Shown: positions 3,625 through 28,560 of the stretch, piece by piece
How the letters are laid out: every line of letters starts with the position of its first letter
Numbering within the stretch: the first letter of the stretch is position 1
NCBI GenBank assembly: GCA_017516485.1
Contig: JAFXCH010000006.1
Coordinates: forward strand, 1 to 45,224
Length of the DNA stretch: 45,224 nucleotides
Direction: 5' to 3'
Source: Clostridia bacterium
GTDB lineage: Bacteria; Bacillota; Clostridia; Oscillospirales; Acutalibacteraceae
Translations under genes and position numbers: made by a program
The notes under the pieces: generated by a model
Told to the model about the DNA's origin: nothing
Seen by the model: the letters and a program-made list of their open reading frames with translations, nothing else
Database searches by the model: none

Positions 3625-4278
3625 TTATTTTGCCTGGTCGTAATTCGATATAACTATTTCGCAGTCAAAGCCTGCGGAGCTTGAGTCGCCGTACCAATAT
3701 ACGCCGAATGAACGCTCGCCGTCATATTTACTGTAAAACATCGCAACCGTTGAAGGAGCGGTGCTTGGTATATGTGCACGGTTGTTATTATCGGTAAAGC
3801 CTGCAGCTTCAAGCTTGTCGACGTAGTCGAGGTAACTGCTGTAATCAAAATTGTTAATTCTGATTATTGTTCTGTTGCCTTTGTCAGTAACATCATTAAA
3901 TGTCGAGATACCGGATGTTCTGATTTTCGGCAAACCTTCGGTCAACTCGTTGTCTTTCCAACCGTTGACTGAGTCAACACGTGTTGCGTACTCTTCGTGT
4001 TCTTTCGTTGTTTCGGGCACTCCAATAGCAGAAGAAACAGGAGCTTTGCTTGTAGTCGGTGTCAGAATCTCAGTCTGTGCATCGACAAAAGGCTTAATGG
4101 TTGTATAATCTCCGATAGGCAAGTTGTTGAAATCAACAGTTGTATTCTGTGCTGTTGTTGTGGCAGTGTCTGTCGTAACATCGGTTTCGGATTTGCCTGC
4201 AAACTTAATTCCGAGCACTGTGAGCACTGCAACAGCAACTACAGCTGAAGCTATAATTATAATCTTCGTCTTACTCAT
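3625..4278 (-). CDS. Membrane-anchored extracellular protein of unknown function, coupled to prfB
   Basis: This gene encodes 217 residues with one N-terminal membrane helix (about residues 4-26, KIIIIASAVVAVAVLTVLGI). A Thr/Ser-rich linker (about 30-100) and a compact mixed domain (about 105-215) follow, predicted outside the cell. I recognise no family and see no catalytic motif. Its ATG lies inside the last codons of prfB (8-base overlap), so translation is probably coupled. It shares the prfB promoter and ends at the terminator at 3576-3607. Why a secreted protein is tied to a release factor is unclear; the pairing may be only positional. Confidence 0.8.
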   Translation of the reverse strand: MSKTKIIIIASAVVAVAVLTVLGIKFAGKSETDVTTDTATTTAQNTTVDFNNLPIGDYTTIKPFVDAQTEILTPTTSKAPVSSAIGVPETTKEHEEYATRVDSVNGWKDNELTEGLPKIRTSGISTFNDVTDKGNRTIIRINNFDYSSYLDYVDKLEAAGFTDNNNRAHIPSTAPSTVAMFYSKYDGERSFGVYWYGDSSSAGFDCEIVISNYDQAK

Positions 4279-10895: not shown

Positions 10896-13301
10896 ATGGC
10901 TAACTACGATTTTAAATCTGCCGAGCAGAAATGGCAGGACAAATGGGACGAGTCAGGCGTATTTCACGCTGAAGACGGCTCCGACAAAAAGAAATTCTAC
11001 GCCCTCGTAGAATTTCCCTATCCGAGCGGCGCAGGTATGCACGTCGGCCACATCAAGGCTTACTCAGGCCTTGAGGTAGTATCCCGTAAACGCAGAATGG
11101 AGGGCTACAACGTCCTCTTCCCGATAGGCTTCGATGCATACGGTCTGCCTACCGAAAACTACGCAATCAAAACAGGTATCCACCCCAGACAGGTTACCGA
11201 CAATAATATCGCAAAGTTCACTTCACAGCTTAAGCGTGTCGGCTTCTCATTCGATTGGGACAGAGTAATCGACACCACAGAAGAGGGCTACTACAAGTGG
11301 ACTCAGTGGATTTTCCTCAAGATGTTCGAAAACGGTCTCGCATTCCGTGACAAGACTCTTGTCAATTACTGCCCCTCATGTAAGGTTGTTCTTTCAAATG
11401 AGGATTCTCAGGGCGGTAAGTGCGATATCTGCCACAGCGATATTGTGCAGAAATCCAAGGATGTTTGGTACCTTCGTATCACCGAGTATGCAGATAAGCT
11501 GCTCGAGGGTCTTAACGAGGTCGATTACCTTCCCAATGTCAAGCTCCAGCAGGAAAATTGGATTGGTAAGTCAACAGGTGCTTTCGTAAACTTCACCGTT
11601 AAGAATACCGATGAAACACTCCGCATCTATACAACCCGTCCCGATACTCTCTTTGGCGTAACCTTTATGGTTATGGCTCCCGAGCATCCTATGCTTGACA
11701 AGTATAAGGATATGATTGAGAATTTCGATGAGGTCGAGAATTACAGAGCAGAGTGTGCAAAGAAAACCGAGTTTGAGCGTACACAGCTTGTCAAGGATAA
11801 GACAGGTGTCTGCCTCAAGGGCTTTGTCGGCATCAACCCCGTAAACGGCAAGGAAATTCCGATTTTCATTTCCGACTACGTTATGATGGGCTACGGCACA
11901 GGTGCTATTATGGCTGTGCCCGCACACGACCAGCGTGACTACGACTTCGCAAAGAAGTTCGGCATCGATATTATCGAGGTCATCAAGGGTGGTGACATTT
12001 CTGTCGAGGCTTACACAGGCGACGGCGAAATGGTCAACTCCGACTACCTCAACGGCTATACAGACAAGAAGTCTTCTATCGCACGCGTGCTTGAAGAGCT
12101 TGAGAAGCAGGGCATCGGCGAAAAGGGCGTTCAGTATAAAATGAAGGACTGGGCATTCAACCGTCAGCGTTATTGGGGCGAGCCGATTCCGATTGTCCAC
12201 TGTGACAAGTGCGGTATGGTTGCTGTTCCTTACGAGGAGCTTCCCCTTAAGCTTCCCAAGGTAGAAAACTTTGAGCCCGGTCAGGATGGCGAAAGCCCCC
12301 TTGCAAAGATTGATTCTTATGTCAACTGCACTTGCCCGAAGTGCGGCGGCGCAGCAAAGCGTGAGACCGATACAATGCCTCAGTGGGCAGGCTCGTCATG
12401 GTACTTCCTTCGTTATATCGACCCCCACAATACAGAGCGTTTTGCCGATATGGAAAAGCTTAAGTACTGGGGTCAGGTTGACTGGTACAACGGCGGTATG
12501 GAGCATGTAACCCGTCACCTTATCTACTCTCGTTTCTGGCACAAGTTCCTCTACGACCTTGGCGAAGTCCCCACAGCAGAGCCGTATGCAAAGCGTACAG
12601 CTCAGGGCCTTATCCTCGGTCCGGACGGCGTAAAGATGTCCAAGTCCAGAGGCAATGTTATCGACCCGAATGATGTTGTCGAGTCCTTCGGTGCCGACGT
12701 TCTCCGTACCTACGTCCTCTTTATGGGCGACTATGAGAAGGCAGCTCCCTGGTCAGAGGACAGCGTTAAGGGCTGTAAGAGATTCATCGACAGAGTATGG
12801 AATCTTCAGTCAATTCTTACCGACTCCGACGAGTATTCAAAGAAGCTCGAGTCTGCATTCCACAGAACGATCAAGAAGGTTTCTTCCGATATCGAAAATC
12901 TTAAGTACAACACTGCAATCGCCGCTCTTATGACTCTCCTTAACGAGATTTATGATGCAGGTGCTGTCACACGCAAGGAGCTTAAGACCTTTGTAACTCT
13001 TCTCAATCCCTTTGCTCCTCATGTTACTGAGGAAATCAACGAGGCTCTCGGCTACGGTATGCTCGCAAACGGTGAGTGGCCGACTTATGACGAAGCAAAG
13101 TGTGTTGATAACGAGATTGAAATCGTTGTACAGATCAACGGCAAAATCCGTGCAAAGATGATGATTGCAACAGACATCGAGGCTGCAGACGCAATCGCAC
13201 TTGCAAAGGCAGACGAAAAGATTGCCGCAGAAATCGCAGGCAAAAATATCGTCAAGGAGCTTTACGTTAAGGGCAAGCTTGTAAATATTGTTGCCAGATG
13301 A
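10896..13301 (+). CDS. leuS: Leucyl-tRNA synthetase
   Basis: This class I synthetase of 801 residues charges tRNA-Leu and edits mischarged products. The HIGH-type motif is HVGH at residues 49-52 and KMSKS lies at 580-584. The CP1 editing domain carries TTRPDTLFG. A zinc-binding pair CPSC...CDIC and a second CDKCG...CPKCG are present, and the leucine-specific segment DTMPQWAGSSWYFLRY is clear. The length is typical. RBS AAGGA (10880-10884). No T-tailed terminator follows; instead the gene runs straight into a multi-hairpin array. Confidence 0.97.
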   Translation: MANYDFKSAEQKWQDKWDESGVFHAEDGSDKKKFYALVEFPYPSGAGMHVGHIKAYSGLEVVSRKRRMEGYNVLFPIGFDAYGLPTENYAIKTGIHPRQVTDNNIAKFTSQLKRVGFSFDWDRVIDTTEEGYYKWTQWIFLKMFENGLAFRDKTLVNYCPSCKVVLSNEDSQGGKCDICHSDIVQKSKDVWYLRITEYADKLLEGLNEVDYLPNVKLQQENWIGKSTGAFVNFTVKNTDETLRIYTTRPDTLFGVTFMVMAPEHPMLDKYKDMIENFDEVENYRAECAKKTEFERTQLVKDKTGVCLKGFVGINPVNGKEIPIFISDYVMMGYGTGAIMAVPAHDQRDYDFAKKFGIDIIEVIKGGDISVEAYTGDGEMVNSDYLNGYTDKKSSIARVLEELEKQGIGEKGVQYKMKDWAFNRQRYWGEPIPIVHCDKCGMVAVPYEELPLKLPKVENFEPGQDGESPLAKIDSYVNCTCPKCGGAAKRETDTMPQWAGSSWYFLRYIDPHNTERFADMEKLKYWGQVDWYNGGMEHVTRHLIYSRFWHKFLYDLGEVPTAEPYAKRTAQGLILGPDGVKMSKSRGNVIDPNDVVESFGADVLRTYVLFMGDYEKAAPWSEDSVKGCKRFIDRVWNLQSILTDSDEYSKKLESAFHRTIKKVSSDIENLKYNTAIAALMTLLNEIYDAGAVTRKELKTFVTLLNPFAPHVTEEINEALGYGMLANGEWPTYDEAKCVDNEIEIVVQINGKIRAKMMIATDIEAADAIALAKADEKIAAEIAGKNIVKELYVKGKLVNIVAR

Positions 13302-13508
13302 CAAAATTATCTGAAGATAATTTTGTCGCGATATAAATCCCTTACGGATTTGCGATATATTGCTCCGCAATGCGATATACGCTTTGCGTGCGAGATATGC
13401 TGCGGCATACGAGGGATTATATCATATCGCAGGCGAGATTTATCGAGCCTATATCGCAATTTCAAAAGTTGAAATTATATCGCATTTGCCATATGGCAAA
13501 TATATCGC
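13301..13508. repeat. Multi-hairpin array A: four GCGATAT linkers then four ATATCGC linkers with hairpins between
   Basis: An opening 12-bp hairpin (13301-13326) is followed by linkers in one orientation, GCGATATA at 13328, 13352 and 13372 and GCGAGATAT at 13390. The reverse complement ATATCGC then appears at 13424-13430, 13451, 13477 and 13502. Between linkers lie short perfect hairpins: AAATCC/GGATTT, TTGC/GCAA, ACGC/GCGT, TATGC/GCATA, AGGCGAGAT/ATCGAGCCT with a tandem G-A mismatch, AATTTCAA/TTGAAATT and ATTTGCC/GGCAAAT. The first linker can pair with the last and so inward, giving a spine with paired side hairpins. The array begins at the leuS stop codon and ends 3 bases before the ribosome site of the GH43 gene. 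It is not a CRISPR: the repeats are 7-8 nt and inverted. Confidence 0.85.
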
Positions 13509-13522
13509 ACGGAGGAAGTCAT

Positions 13523-26901: not shown

Positions 26902-28164
26902 ATGAATTCTTTTGCTAAAAAAGTTATTTCTTTTGTACTAATTGCGGCAACACTTTTTGCTTTCTGCTGTCCTGCTTTTGCTGTAGGTGAAACTGCAACC
27001 GAAGCACCGACAGGCTTTACCGCGGACGATTTTCTTACCACCGACGGTCAGAATATCGTAAACCGTAAGGGCGAAAAGGTAAGGCTCAAGGGTGTCAACC
27101 TCGGTGCGTGGATGATTTTTGAGGGCTGGCTTTGCCCTTATGAGGATGACCTCGACCACTATACCGTACTTGAGAAGCTGACAAAGCGTTTCGGTGAGGA
27201 CAAGGCCTACGAGCTTTTCAATACCTATATGGACAACTGGATTACCGAGTATGACCTTGACGAAATCAAAGCTATGGGCTTCAATTGCGTGCGTGTGCCT
27301 TTCTGGTACAGAAACTTCTACTACGACGACAACGGCAGAAAGATTCTCGATGAAAACGGCGAGTGGGATTTATCACGCCTTGAGTGGGTAGTGAGCGAAT
27401 GTGCCGAGCGTGAAATTTACGTCGTGCTCGATATGCACGGTGCAGTTGGCTACCAGAGCGATGCACCCCACAACGGCAAGGCAGATTCTGTAGGCCTTTA
27501 TGCGGATACCGAGCAGGGCGAGCGTTACCGCGAGCTTACAGACGAGCTGTGGACTGAGATTGCAACTCGCTTCAAGGATGAGCCTGCCGTTGCTATGTAT
27601 GACCTGCTCAACGAGCCGATGTGCGACGTTGAAGCAACCGAGTTTGAACGCAGAAAAAATAACGAAATGATTTATACCAGACTTTACGATACAATCCGTG
27701 CTGTCGACAGTGAGCACATCATCACAATGGAAGCTATCTGGACTGCAATCGCTCTGCCTCTTGCCTGGACAAAGGGCTGGGAAAACGTAGTATATCAGGT
27801 GCATTTCTATAACAATTCAAACTTCATTTTTAACCTCTTTGCCTGGTTTACAAAGTTTATTTACTCCGATGTGCCTATGATGATGGGTGAGTTTTATCCT
27901 CACCAGAAAACAACGTGGGACAACTGCTTCAAGACTCTCGACAAGGCAAATTACAGCTGGTTCCTCTGGACTTACAAGGCAACGGGCCACGGAATGTGGA
28001 GCTCCGACTGGTGCCTGCGAGGCAGTAAAGACGGCTTTGAACGAGTCAATGTAGATAAGGATTCTTACGAAGAAATCGCCCGTAAATGGGGCGAATGTAT
28101 CCGCACCGAAAACGGCTTCCAGGACAGCGGACACTACGACAGAGATGTAAAAGAGTTTATCTGA
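26902..28164 (+). CDS. Secreted GH5-family endo/exo-glucanase-type glycoside hydrolase
   Basis: The start at 26902 follows AAAGGAG (26887-26893); the ATG at 26863 lies inside the promoter. The 420-residue protein has a signal peptide ending AFA (about residue 27). A GH5 barrel follows: RLKGVNLGAWMIFEGWL, FNCVRVPFWYRNFY, VVLDMHGAVG, acid/base Glu238 in LLNEPM and nucleophile Glu330 in MMMGEFYP. The GVNLGAWMIFEGW start is typical of exo-beta-1,3-glucanase-like GH5. It lacks a carbohydrate-binding module or anchor. The gene is followed by multi-hairpin array B and faces the GH38 gene. Confidence 0.9.
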   Translation: MNSFAKKVISFVLIAATLFAFCCPAFAVGETATEAPTGFTADDFLTTDGQNIVNRKGEKVRLKGVNLGAWMIFEGWLCPYEDDLDHYTVLEKLTKRFGEDKAYELFNTYMDNWITEYDLDEIKAMGFNCVRVPFWYRNFYYDDNGRKILDENGEWDLSRLEWVVSECAEREIYVVLDMHGAVGYQSDAPHNGKADSVGLYADTEQGERYRELTDELWTEIATRFKDEPAVAMYDLLNEPMCDVEATEFERRKNNEMIYTRLYDTIRAVDSEHIITMEAIWTAIALPLAWTKGWENVVYQVHFYNNSNFIFNLFAWFTKFIYSDVPMMMGEFYPHQKTTWDNCFKTLDKANYSWFLWTYKATGHGMWSSDWCLRGSKDGFERVNVDKDSYEEIARKWGECIRTENGFQDSGHYDRDVKEFI

Positions 28165-28175
28165 ACAAAAAAATG

Positions 28176-28497
28176 AACTGATTTATCAGTTTAAATCATG
28201 TTGCAACGCAACAAATCATGGCGTTTACGCCAAATCGTGCGACAGCAAATCATTAAAACACAAAGACAATAGCACAAACTTTTCTCGGTGCTACCATCTG
28301 TATTTTGTGTATCAATTTTATTGAGGTATTAAAACACAAAGACAATTGCTCTGACTTTCCTCGGGGATACTGTCTTTGCTTTGTGTATCAACTTTATCGA
28401 GGCATTAAAAATGATTTGCCTTACGGCATGAATTGATTTTTAAAAAATCATGATTTGCAAAATTATATTTTGCATGATTTGTGTTTTGATAAAACAC
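28176..28497. repeat. Multi-hairpin array B: four AAATCAT linkers then four ATGATTT linkers, with a tandem repeat in the centre
   Basis: Opening hairpin AACTGAT/ATCAGTT (28176-28191). Linkers AAATCAT at 28193, 28213 and 28247 and AAATCGT at 28232; then the reverse complement ATGATTT at 28411, 28450 and 28474 and ATGAATT at 28428. Hairpins between linkers: GTTGC/GCAAC, GGCG/CGCC, TGC/GCA, TGCC/GGCA, GATTTTT/AAAAATC and TGCAAAAT/ATTTTGCA; closing hairpin GTGTTTT/AAAACAC (28481-28497). The linker count, order and inversion are the same as in array A, but the linker sequence is different. Between the two halves sits a 76-bp unit repeated twice (28253-28404). Confidence 0.85.
28253..28404. repeat. 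Two tandem 76-bp units inside array B
   Basis: Each unit starts TTAAAACACAAAGACAAT (28253 and 28329) and contains TTTTGTGTATCAA or CTTTGTGTATCAA about 50 bases later, allowing an ACACAAA/TTTGTGT stem. The middles have diverged. Confidence 0.75.
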
Positions 28498-28509
28498 ATT
28501 AAACAATTA

Positions 28510-28541
28510 GCCCCGGACTTCCGATTAAAGAAGCCCGGGGC
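28510..28541 (-). terminator. GC-rich hairpin between the convergent GH5 and GH38 genes
   Basis: 12-bp stem (28510-28521 / 28530-28541, one mismatch) with AT-rich but not pure T flanks on either side. It probably ends the GH38 transcript on the minus strand. Confidence 0.6.
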
Positions 28542-28560
28542 ATTATTATTGGTTGATATA

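Follow-up and report, generated by a model that had tools for sequence, protein, structure and literature searches.

At positions 28172–28500 of the DNA analysed here (45,224 nucleotides in full, called the window below), the word AAATCAT alternates with hairpins and is followed, beyond a central segment, by its reverse complement ATGATTT, which again alternates with hairpins. A second array at 13300–13508 has the same plan and other words. The locus raises the question of what kind of sequence the two arrays belong to, and whether it is as DNA or as RNA that their hairpins matter. Sequences of this type are dispersed in many copies, differ between genomes at orthologous sites in presence, orientation or type, and lie mostly at gene 3′ ends or terminators. 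Their hairpins vary freely yet are almost entirely Watson–Crick paired, and their words are homogeneous in most elements and swapped en bloc. We tentatively interpret both arrays as copies of one dispersed, non-autonomous mobile class, for which we use the term linked-hairpin element, built from DNA hairpins and a protein-specific word; we would put this at somewhat below an even chance.

Anatomy of the two elements

The AAATCAT element consists of the following parts:

28172–28174, + strand: left flank AAT, common to nearly all AAATCAT copies and a possible target half-site
28175–28192, + strand: h1, the outermost left hairpin, GAACTG..CAGTTT
within 28193–28253, + strand: left arm, with AAATCAT at 28193, hairpin GTTGC..GCAAC, AAATCAT at 28213 and hairpin GGCG..CGCC
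within 28193–28253, + strand: rest of the left arm, with AAATCGT at 28232, hairpin GCGACAGC and AAATCAT at 28247
28254–28410, + strand: 157-nt centre
within 28411–28480, + strand: right arm, with ATGATTT at 28411, hairpin GCCTTACGGC, ATGAATT at 28428 and hairpin GATTTTTAAAAAATC
within 28411–28480, + strand: rest of the right arm, with ATGATTT at 28450, hairpin GCAAAAT..ATTTTGC and ATGATTT at 28474
28481–28497, + strand: h8, the outermost right hairpin, GTGTTTTGATAAAACAC, followed by ATT (28498–28500)

The GCGATAT element consists of:

13300–13327, + strand: h1, which begins within the stop codon (13299–13301) of leucyl-tRNA synthetase
13328–13396, + strand: left arm, with words at 13328, 13352, 13372 and 13390 (GCGAGAT) and three hairpins
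13397–13423, + strand: centre
13424–13508, + strand: right arm, with ATATCGC at 13424, 13451, 13477 and 13502 and three hairpins

An earlier note on this DNA had described four AAATCAT and four ATGATTT words, one variant in each set, with hairpins between them. The word positions confirm this, with three exact words and one variant in either arm; hairpins occupy all six gaps between words, and h1 and h8 stand outside the word arrays. The description was incomplete in that the centre contains two 76-nt units, 80% identical, at 28252–28327 and 28328–28403. The 4+4 plan that it also assigned to positions 13301–13508 is present there, with the words GCGATAT and ATATCGC and the single variant GCGAGAT. 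The h1 hairpin of the AAATCAT element starts 10 nt past the stop codon (28162–28164) of a GH5-type gene. By eye, GGGATTATATC in the centre of the GCGATAT element complements, one base short, the end of word 1 and the 5′ arm of h2, GATATAAATCCC. Single-strand folding is strong for both elements, with z = −5.5 for 28168–28499 folded as RNA (0 of 100 shuffles as stable) and z = −6.8 for 13299–13520 folded as DNA (0 of 200).

The generalised AAATCAT element reads AAT, h1 (GAATTG..CAATTC), four AAATCAT words with three hairpins, the centre, four ATGATTT words with three hairpins, h8 (GCGTTTT..AAAACGC) and ATT. Its centre varies among copies from about 10 nt up to several units of the 76-nt type. 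Parsing by script recovered a left AAT in 32 of 40 elements and a right ATT in 34 of them, where 4 of the left and 2 of the right misses are, by eye, parsing failures. The generalised GCGATAT element has h1 at a stop codon and four words with three hairpins (h2 being AAATCCC..GGGATTT), then a centre holding one more hairpin along with GGGATTTATATC, which complements word 1 and the h2 5′ arm, and then the inverted arm.

Two further features concern the AAATCAT family. The 76-nt-type unit, central to many of its elements, also stands in tandem beside one of them (locus L110, about 3770–3990) and looks like an independent repeat. A hairpin variant with tandem G.A mismatches, xGAGC..GCGAx, is conserved in the first or second hairpin slot, where the motif GCGAAGC, an unusually stable DNA mini-hairpin, also occurs.

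Copies, orthologous sites and gene context

The possibility that a genome-wide survey would show only these two loci was not borne out. The genome of the window (G000, 2.17 Mb) contains 77 matches to the AAATCAT pattern and 9 to the GCGATAT pattern, compared with 0 for the reversed-pattern control in each case. Clusters of at least three copies of a 7-mer followed by at least three reverse complements number 14 in 545,224 bases of G000 and 0 in a Markov control, and all 14 use AAATCAT or GCGATAT words, some shifted by one base. A word-free de novo search of 971,957 bases gave 54 clusters (Markov control 0), 50 of them built on the two words already described; following up the remaining four brought to light TGATAT, GTGATAT and TGAAAT arrays and one cluster resembling coding repeats. 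Of the 77 AAATCAT matches, 42 are on a single 111.5-kb contig, C9 (L030–L034, L181), and its ortholog in genome G001 (C33) is likewise rich in them.

The AAATCAT pattern occurs in 3 and the GCGATAT pattern in 8 of the 11 genomes of the genus. At the level of the family, the AAATCAT pattern matches 35 of 200 genomes (control 6 genomes); among the matches listed, nearly all those beyond the genus lack hairpins by eye, with G082:C132 and G066:C4 as possible exceptions. The CGATAT pattern matches 64 of 300 family genomes (48 of 135 genera; reversed control 14), many of the matches having clear hairpins and others being coding-like. A stricter AAATCAT pattern returned one record from a named genome collection, the roe-deer-colon Clostridia MAG RGIG4155, 8 kb of which gave only short matches (76–82% over 140–180 nt) to the examined stretches of G000, G001 and G007. 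A phage origin of the AAATCAT element was rejected, as 28160–28560 had no match in phage records.

Orthologous sites were compared among G000, G001 and G007, and the comparison is unpolarised for the direction of change. The window's AAATCAT element is missing from G001, where other REP-like hairpins occupy the orthologous site. The element at C9:33914 of G000 is inverted in G001, and at one site the elements of G000 and G007 point in opposite directions, G001 having CAATATTAAA there with diverged flanks. At C9:59626 and C9:61008 an AAATCAT element in G000 corresponds to a GCGATAT element in both G001 and G007, and the correspondence at C9:78812 is the same, within a gap of 471/304 nt. The empty sites in close strains for which the earlier note had called do exist in near-clean form, but neither is exact at both ends: TGTACAATATTAATCGG in G000 corresponds to a filled site in G001 C5 where the element is accompanied by some 8 and 6 additional nt, and TTATAAATATTACGCC in G000 to a filled site in G001 C3 with 5 additional nt at one end. 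AATATT lies within both, as insertion of AAT- and ATT-flanked copies into AAT^ATT would predict, and no target-site duplication is visible at these two sites, inexact as they are. Because of the extra nucleotides at both, an AAT^ATT insertion rule is put forward only as a proposal.

Recent spread is seen in genome G003, where near-identical GCGATAT copies lie beside different genes: the h1–word–h2 junction is matched exactly seven times and once with 2 mismatches, six of the seven exact matches being within 170 bp of a contig end. These copies have matching inverted ends, AAATTACAGTTT and AAACTGTAATTT, the left ones on other contigs than the right ones, while the inverted ends of AAATCAT copies are limited to AATG/CATT and the inverted words.

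In the GCGATAT type, h1 starts −2 to +4 nt from the last base of the upstream stop codon in 14 of 21 elements; some of these are orthologs of one site (L048, L121 and L126), and the denominator keeps outliers in which h1 is misplaced or which come second in a tandem pair. Such a distance is found for just 1 of 92 terminator-like hairpins, 71 of which have a stop codon upstream. An upstream stop faces h1 within 300 nt in 30 of 40 AAATCAT elements and within 10 nt in 13 of 40. By crude gene calls, the 78 elements that could be classed comprise 58 in codirectional, 12 in convergent and 8 in divergent regions, leaving aside 13 that fall within a called ORF and any whose locus is short or lacks one of the two neighbours. 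The background is 334, 126 and 120 of 580 intergenic regions, so that divergent regions are under-used (8/78 vs 120/580, p = 0.03 by Fisher’s exact test). TGAAAT elements adjoin terminator-like hairpins, and several follow a tRNA gene directly with such a hairpin in between; these tRNA genes were found by Rfam next to L157, L173 and L183 and by eye at L276, L278 and L279.

Words, hairpins and the relation to Gut-1

A search of the genus for the h2 hairpin gave 29 loci that were read, of which 22 held arrays; the others gave no script match (L158, L165, L170) or unrelated sequence (L151, L159, L161, L172). NCGATAT is the word in 18 of the 22 arrays, including L178 with TCGATAT in all seven words, whereas two carry GTGATAT, with one arm seen (L155, L156), and two carry TGAAAT in both arms (L157, L173). 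The scaffold is constant and the word is swapped throughout (GCGATAT, TCGATAT, GTGATAT or TGAAAT), and the linkers thus change en bloc. Within elements, the variable first base of NCGATAT agrees at a rate of 0.72 between words in the same direction and 0.66 between words in opposite directions, compared to 0.61 in within-genome shuffles (0 of 2000 in each case), for 91 elements from 15 genomes from which only identical cores were removed and in which near-identical copies were kept. The claim that linkers are homogenised within an array and different between arrays is therefore supported by both the agreement rates and the word swaps, with one counter-example, L282, where three GTGATAT words make up one arm but the opposite arm uses ATTTCA/ATTTCG.

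The same cannot be said of the idea that selection keeps the left and right words paired. In ten mixed 4+4 elements, a sample of low power, agreement is no higher between partner words (24/40) than between words that are not partners (66/120); this analysis skipped 22 of 125 distinct AAATCAT segments, tandem G.A hairpins included, and 2 of 283 NCGATAT segments. One-armed arrays also exist: 27 of 41 NCGATAT clusters in other genera fail to show at least two words in each direction, though some may have a second arm that uses a different word. Pairing of the trunk as the maintained feature is not supported by the partner comparison. A recognition word repeated in inverted arms would account for the complementarity just as well. 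For the words we regard en-bloc change with homogenisation as the general pattern, but do not accept pairing as its demonstrated cause. Non-Watson–Crick trunk cells number 44 of 980 in AAATCAT and 36 of 420 in GCGATAT elements, compensated double changes falling outside the count. A post hoc observation, on which nothing here is based, is that the words fit NYGAWWT in one orientation, yet AAATCAT then points outward and the others inward.

The hairpins are close to perfect. Among 277 distinct NCGATAT segments, 255 are complementary in their outer 3 nt, with 24 different arm sequences, whereas shuffling gives a mean of 26.8 and a maximum of 42; for the outer 4 nt the figure is 216 of 249 (52 arm sequences). 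On the h1-first strand, 1487 of 1505 pair cells are Watson–Crick, 6 are G.T, 1 is A.C and 11 are other; tandem G.A hairpins are left out of the pair-cell and trunk counts. Among distinct element hairpins 105 of 111 have no non-Watson–Crick pair (the exceptions being 3 G.T, 0 A.C and 3 other), compared with 52 of 92 terminator-like hairpins outside elements in G000 that have one (29 G.T, 17 A.C, 6 other). The difference is significant with p of about 1e-16 by Fisher’s exact test, for hairpins with at most one non-Watson–Crick pair in both sets and arms of 7–12 nt in the terminator-like and at least 4 nt in the element set, so that tandem G.A and other hairpins with more than one such pair fall outside it. 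As element hairpins are far poorer in G.T than terminator-like hairpins of the same genome, the comparison favours a requirement or a repair process at the level of DNA. The stems do covary as those of a single functional structured RNA would, but G.U, which such an RNA would tolerate, is rare (3/111 vs 29/92). The AAATCAT elements show on the h1-first strand an excess of G.T over A.C (18 vs 9 in the trunk; 20 vs 10 with stems added, p = 0.10), a weak lean towards RNA; the GCGATAT trunk has 5 vs 7. Ortholog alignments gave 39 pairs with 63 double Watson–Crick changes, 36 single G.T and 41 single A.C, but they include poor alignments and inverted elements, are unoriented, and are kept out of the argument.

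One arm of the GCGATAT/TGAAAT type corresponds to the Rfam family Gut-1 (RF01706), a non-coding RNA rated “certainly” an RNA and listed as “Human gut only” in the table of its original report (Weinberg et al. 2010, PMC2864571). Positions 13326–13401 match the Gut-1 model over 1–77 of 77 with 39.0 bits and E = 2e-6, below the gathering score of 50. Of the 20 loci searched with the model, five score above it: L183 (78.7 bits), L157 (76.0) and L173 (61.2) with TGAAAT, L155 (55.9) with GTGATAT and L137 (51.7) with GCGATAT; L150, L131 and L133 score below. The model matches 53 of 120 family genomes, 42 of them over the cut-off, in 52 of 119 genera, with one sub-threshold hit in 14 control genomes. 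A second, inverted arm is found in 13 of 13 TGAAAT-type loci read (L273–L282, L157, L173 and L183), that of L279 being cut by a contig end and that of L282 having a different word. It follows that part of the element class had already been named, and the earlier note, which knew of no named repeat family with this behaviour, holds only for AAATCAT: its element at 28176–28497 has no Gut-1 match at E ≤ 1 (four hits are to other families, at most 21 bits and E ≥ 0.41), and the whole window has no Rfam match at gathering scores. In the literature searched, which covered few subscription papers, the phrase “Gut-1 RNA” was not found and RF01706 occurred in one paper; the papers listed for similar repeats concerned REP sequences, none with the two-armed architecture of words and hairpins.

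Possible nature of the elements and comparison with known systems

The interpretation as a mobile class draws on the copy number, the occurrence in other genomes of the genus, the G003 copies, the differences at orthologous sites, the perfection of the hairpins, the words and the placement. Counting against it are the failure to find a transposase, none of the Y1-type ORFs read being directly flanked by arrays, the inexact empty sites, the two words of L282, the orientation of the GCGATAT h1, which faces the upstream gene as a DNA-only element would not need, the restriction of matching ends to G003, on different contigs, and the verdict of “certainly” an RNA that its discoverers gave Gut-1 (PMC2864571); the G.T lean of AAATCAT elements counts weakly. 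The hairpins would act as DNA, single-stranded or extruded, so that mispairing would matter on both strands. A recombinase or other DNA-binding protein acting in trans would make its sequence-specific contact with the word that separates the hairpins, and copies would have to follow the specificity of that protein. Insertion would be into AT-rich DNA close to the ends of genes, perhaps at AAT^ATT in the AAATCAT family, and the enzyme that mobilises the copies in trans may be encoded elsewhere. Template-switch repair of short palindromes probably helps keep the arms perfect. We are more doubtful of the wider proposal that this is a distinct class of mobile DNA in gut Clostridia, with ends made of single-strand hairpin arrays and an exchangeable address word that is rewritten throughout the element as the mobilising protein changes, Gut-1 being one arm.

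A linked mobiliser was sought among Y1 transposases and rejected. PF01797 is present in 7 of the 11 genus genomes, and the 16 Y1-type ORFs examined, mostly with at least about 1 kb of sequence to either side, resemble RAYT or IS200 TnpA. Arrays directly flank none of them, the nearest case being an AAATCAT element some 1.1 kb downstream of one. The PF01797-negative genomes G006, G008, G009 and G010 have no AAATCAT arrays, which carries no weight because the PF01797-positive G002–G005 have none either. RAYT-like Y1 transposase ORFs occur in genus genomes at L257, L259–L266, L268–L270 and L272. By eye, the upstream frames of L261 and L263 seem to traverse GTAGGGGCG-type REP sequence, which suggests that RAYTs of this type serve that separate REP family, a family also present at the window's orthologous site in G001. 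Hairpins of the form TGTAGGGGCG..CGCCC, likewise REP-like, are a separate repeat in these genomes.

Among the alternatives, the arms could be structured RNA modules in the 3′ region of upstream transcripts (a stabiliser, a processing signal or a protein sponge), with the words as single-stranded protein-binding sites. This would account for the match of an arm to an sRNA family of Rfam, the GCGATAT h1 at the stop codon of the upstream gene (14/21), the strong folding, the under-use of divergent regions (8/78 vs 120/580) and the mild G.T over A.C excess in AAATCAT elements. We nevertheless consider it unlikely, as G.T pairs are far rarer than in the terminators of G000, either strand of a two-armed element bears the word in one arm only, and AAATCAT elements stand in both orientations at one site. 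Less probable again is a largely neutral origin by template switching, a published mechanism (PMC8794818 and PMC8604942), by which palindromes would beget perfect palindromes, words would homogenise through slippage or strand switching, and ordinary duplication and recombination would spread them. Orthologous h1 hairpins at G000 C9:84081 and G001 C18:26187 do, by eye, have different stems that are nearly perfect in each genome, and h1 near G001 C33:93300 overlaps the final codons of the adjacent gene (by eye), as such a process might produce. It leaves unexplained why the 4+3 / 4+3 layout recurs in many genera, why the AAT/ATT flanks are almost invariant, and how G003 acquired recent copies at several loci. 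That the arrays are chromosome-structure sites, bound by gyrase or a nucleoid protein like BIMEs and spread as 3′-end repeats, is very improbable despite their gene-3′-end placement and the 42/77 AAATCAT matches on one contig, as nothing links the words to a host protein and the words differ between close species, whose host proteins presumably do not.

Gut-1, an orphan RNA family known since 2010, gains a genomic identity from these elements, which suggest that it is no simple sRNA gene but part of a mobile unit with two arms and hairpins that are perfect as DNA. An address word that is exchanged en bloc while its hairpin scaffold stays constant would document, in natural genomes, the co-evolution of a repeat with its protein, and nearly wobble-free hairpins offer a quantitative means to tell DNA-level from RNA-level palindromes in genomes. 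A directed recombination system, as yet unnamed, is indicated by elements that are inverted at one site or exchanged from species to species, and the class may be a little-known kind of mobile element.

Several known systems share part of this description. The ends of IS200/IS605 elements bear hairpins, their targets are AT-rich and they make no target duplication. The linked-hairpin elements resemble them in bearing hairpins and may do so in the other two respects, but have many hairpins in two arms rather than one per end, AAT/ATT flanks on both sides and no linked Y1 gene among the 16 Y1-type ORFs read. They are short, non-coding, multi-copy and dispersed, as are MITEs, and may share their inverted ends, which match in G003 but on different contigs. 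They differ from MITEs in having hairpin–word arrays instead of plain ends and perhaps in target-site duplication, none being visible at the two empty sites, of which neither is exact at both ends. Like REP, BIME and REPIN sequences they are dispersed palindromes near gene 3′ ends, often in inverted pairs. REP/REPIN palindromes are described as presumably mobilised in trans by RAYT (TnpA-REP; PMC3733652), whereas the RAYT-like ORFs that exist here are not directly flanked by arrays; moreover, the GTAG/CGTC tag was not seen in copies by eye, words adjoining the hairpins instead, and an element has up to eight hairpins with words between them. Gut-1 is matched by one arm, with four words (consensus UGAAAU) and three hairpins. 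However, the Rfam model covers 77 nt and the elements are two-armed, the word may also be GCGATAT, TCGATAT or GTGATAT while the AAATCAT family is unmatched, and a structure reported from the human gut only is found here across one bacterial family.
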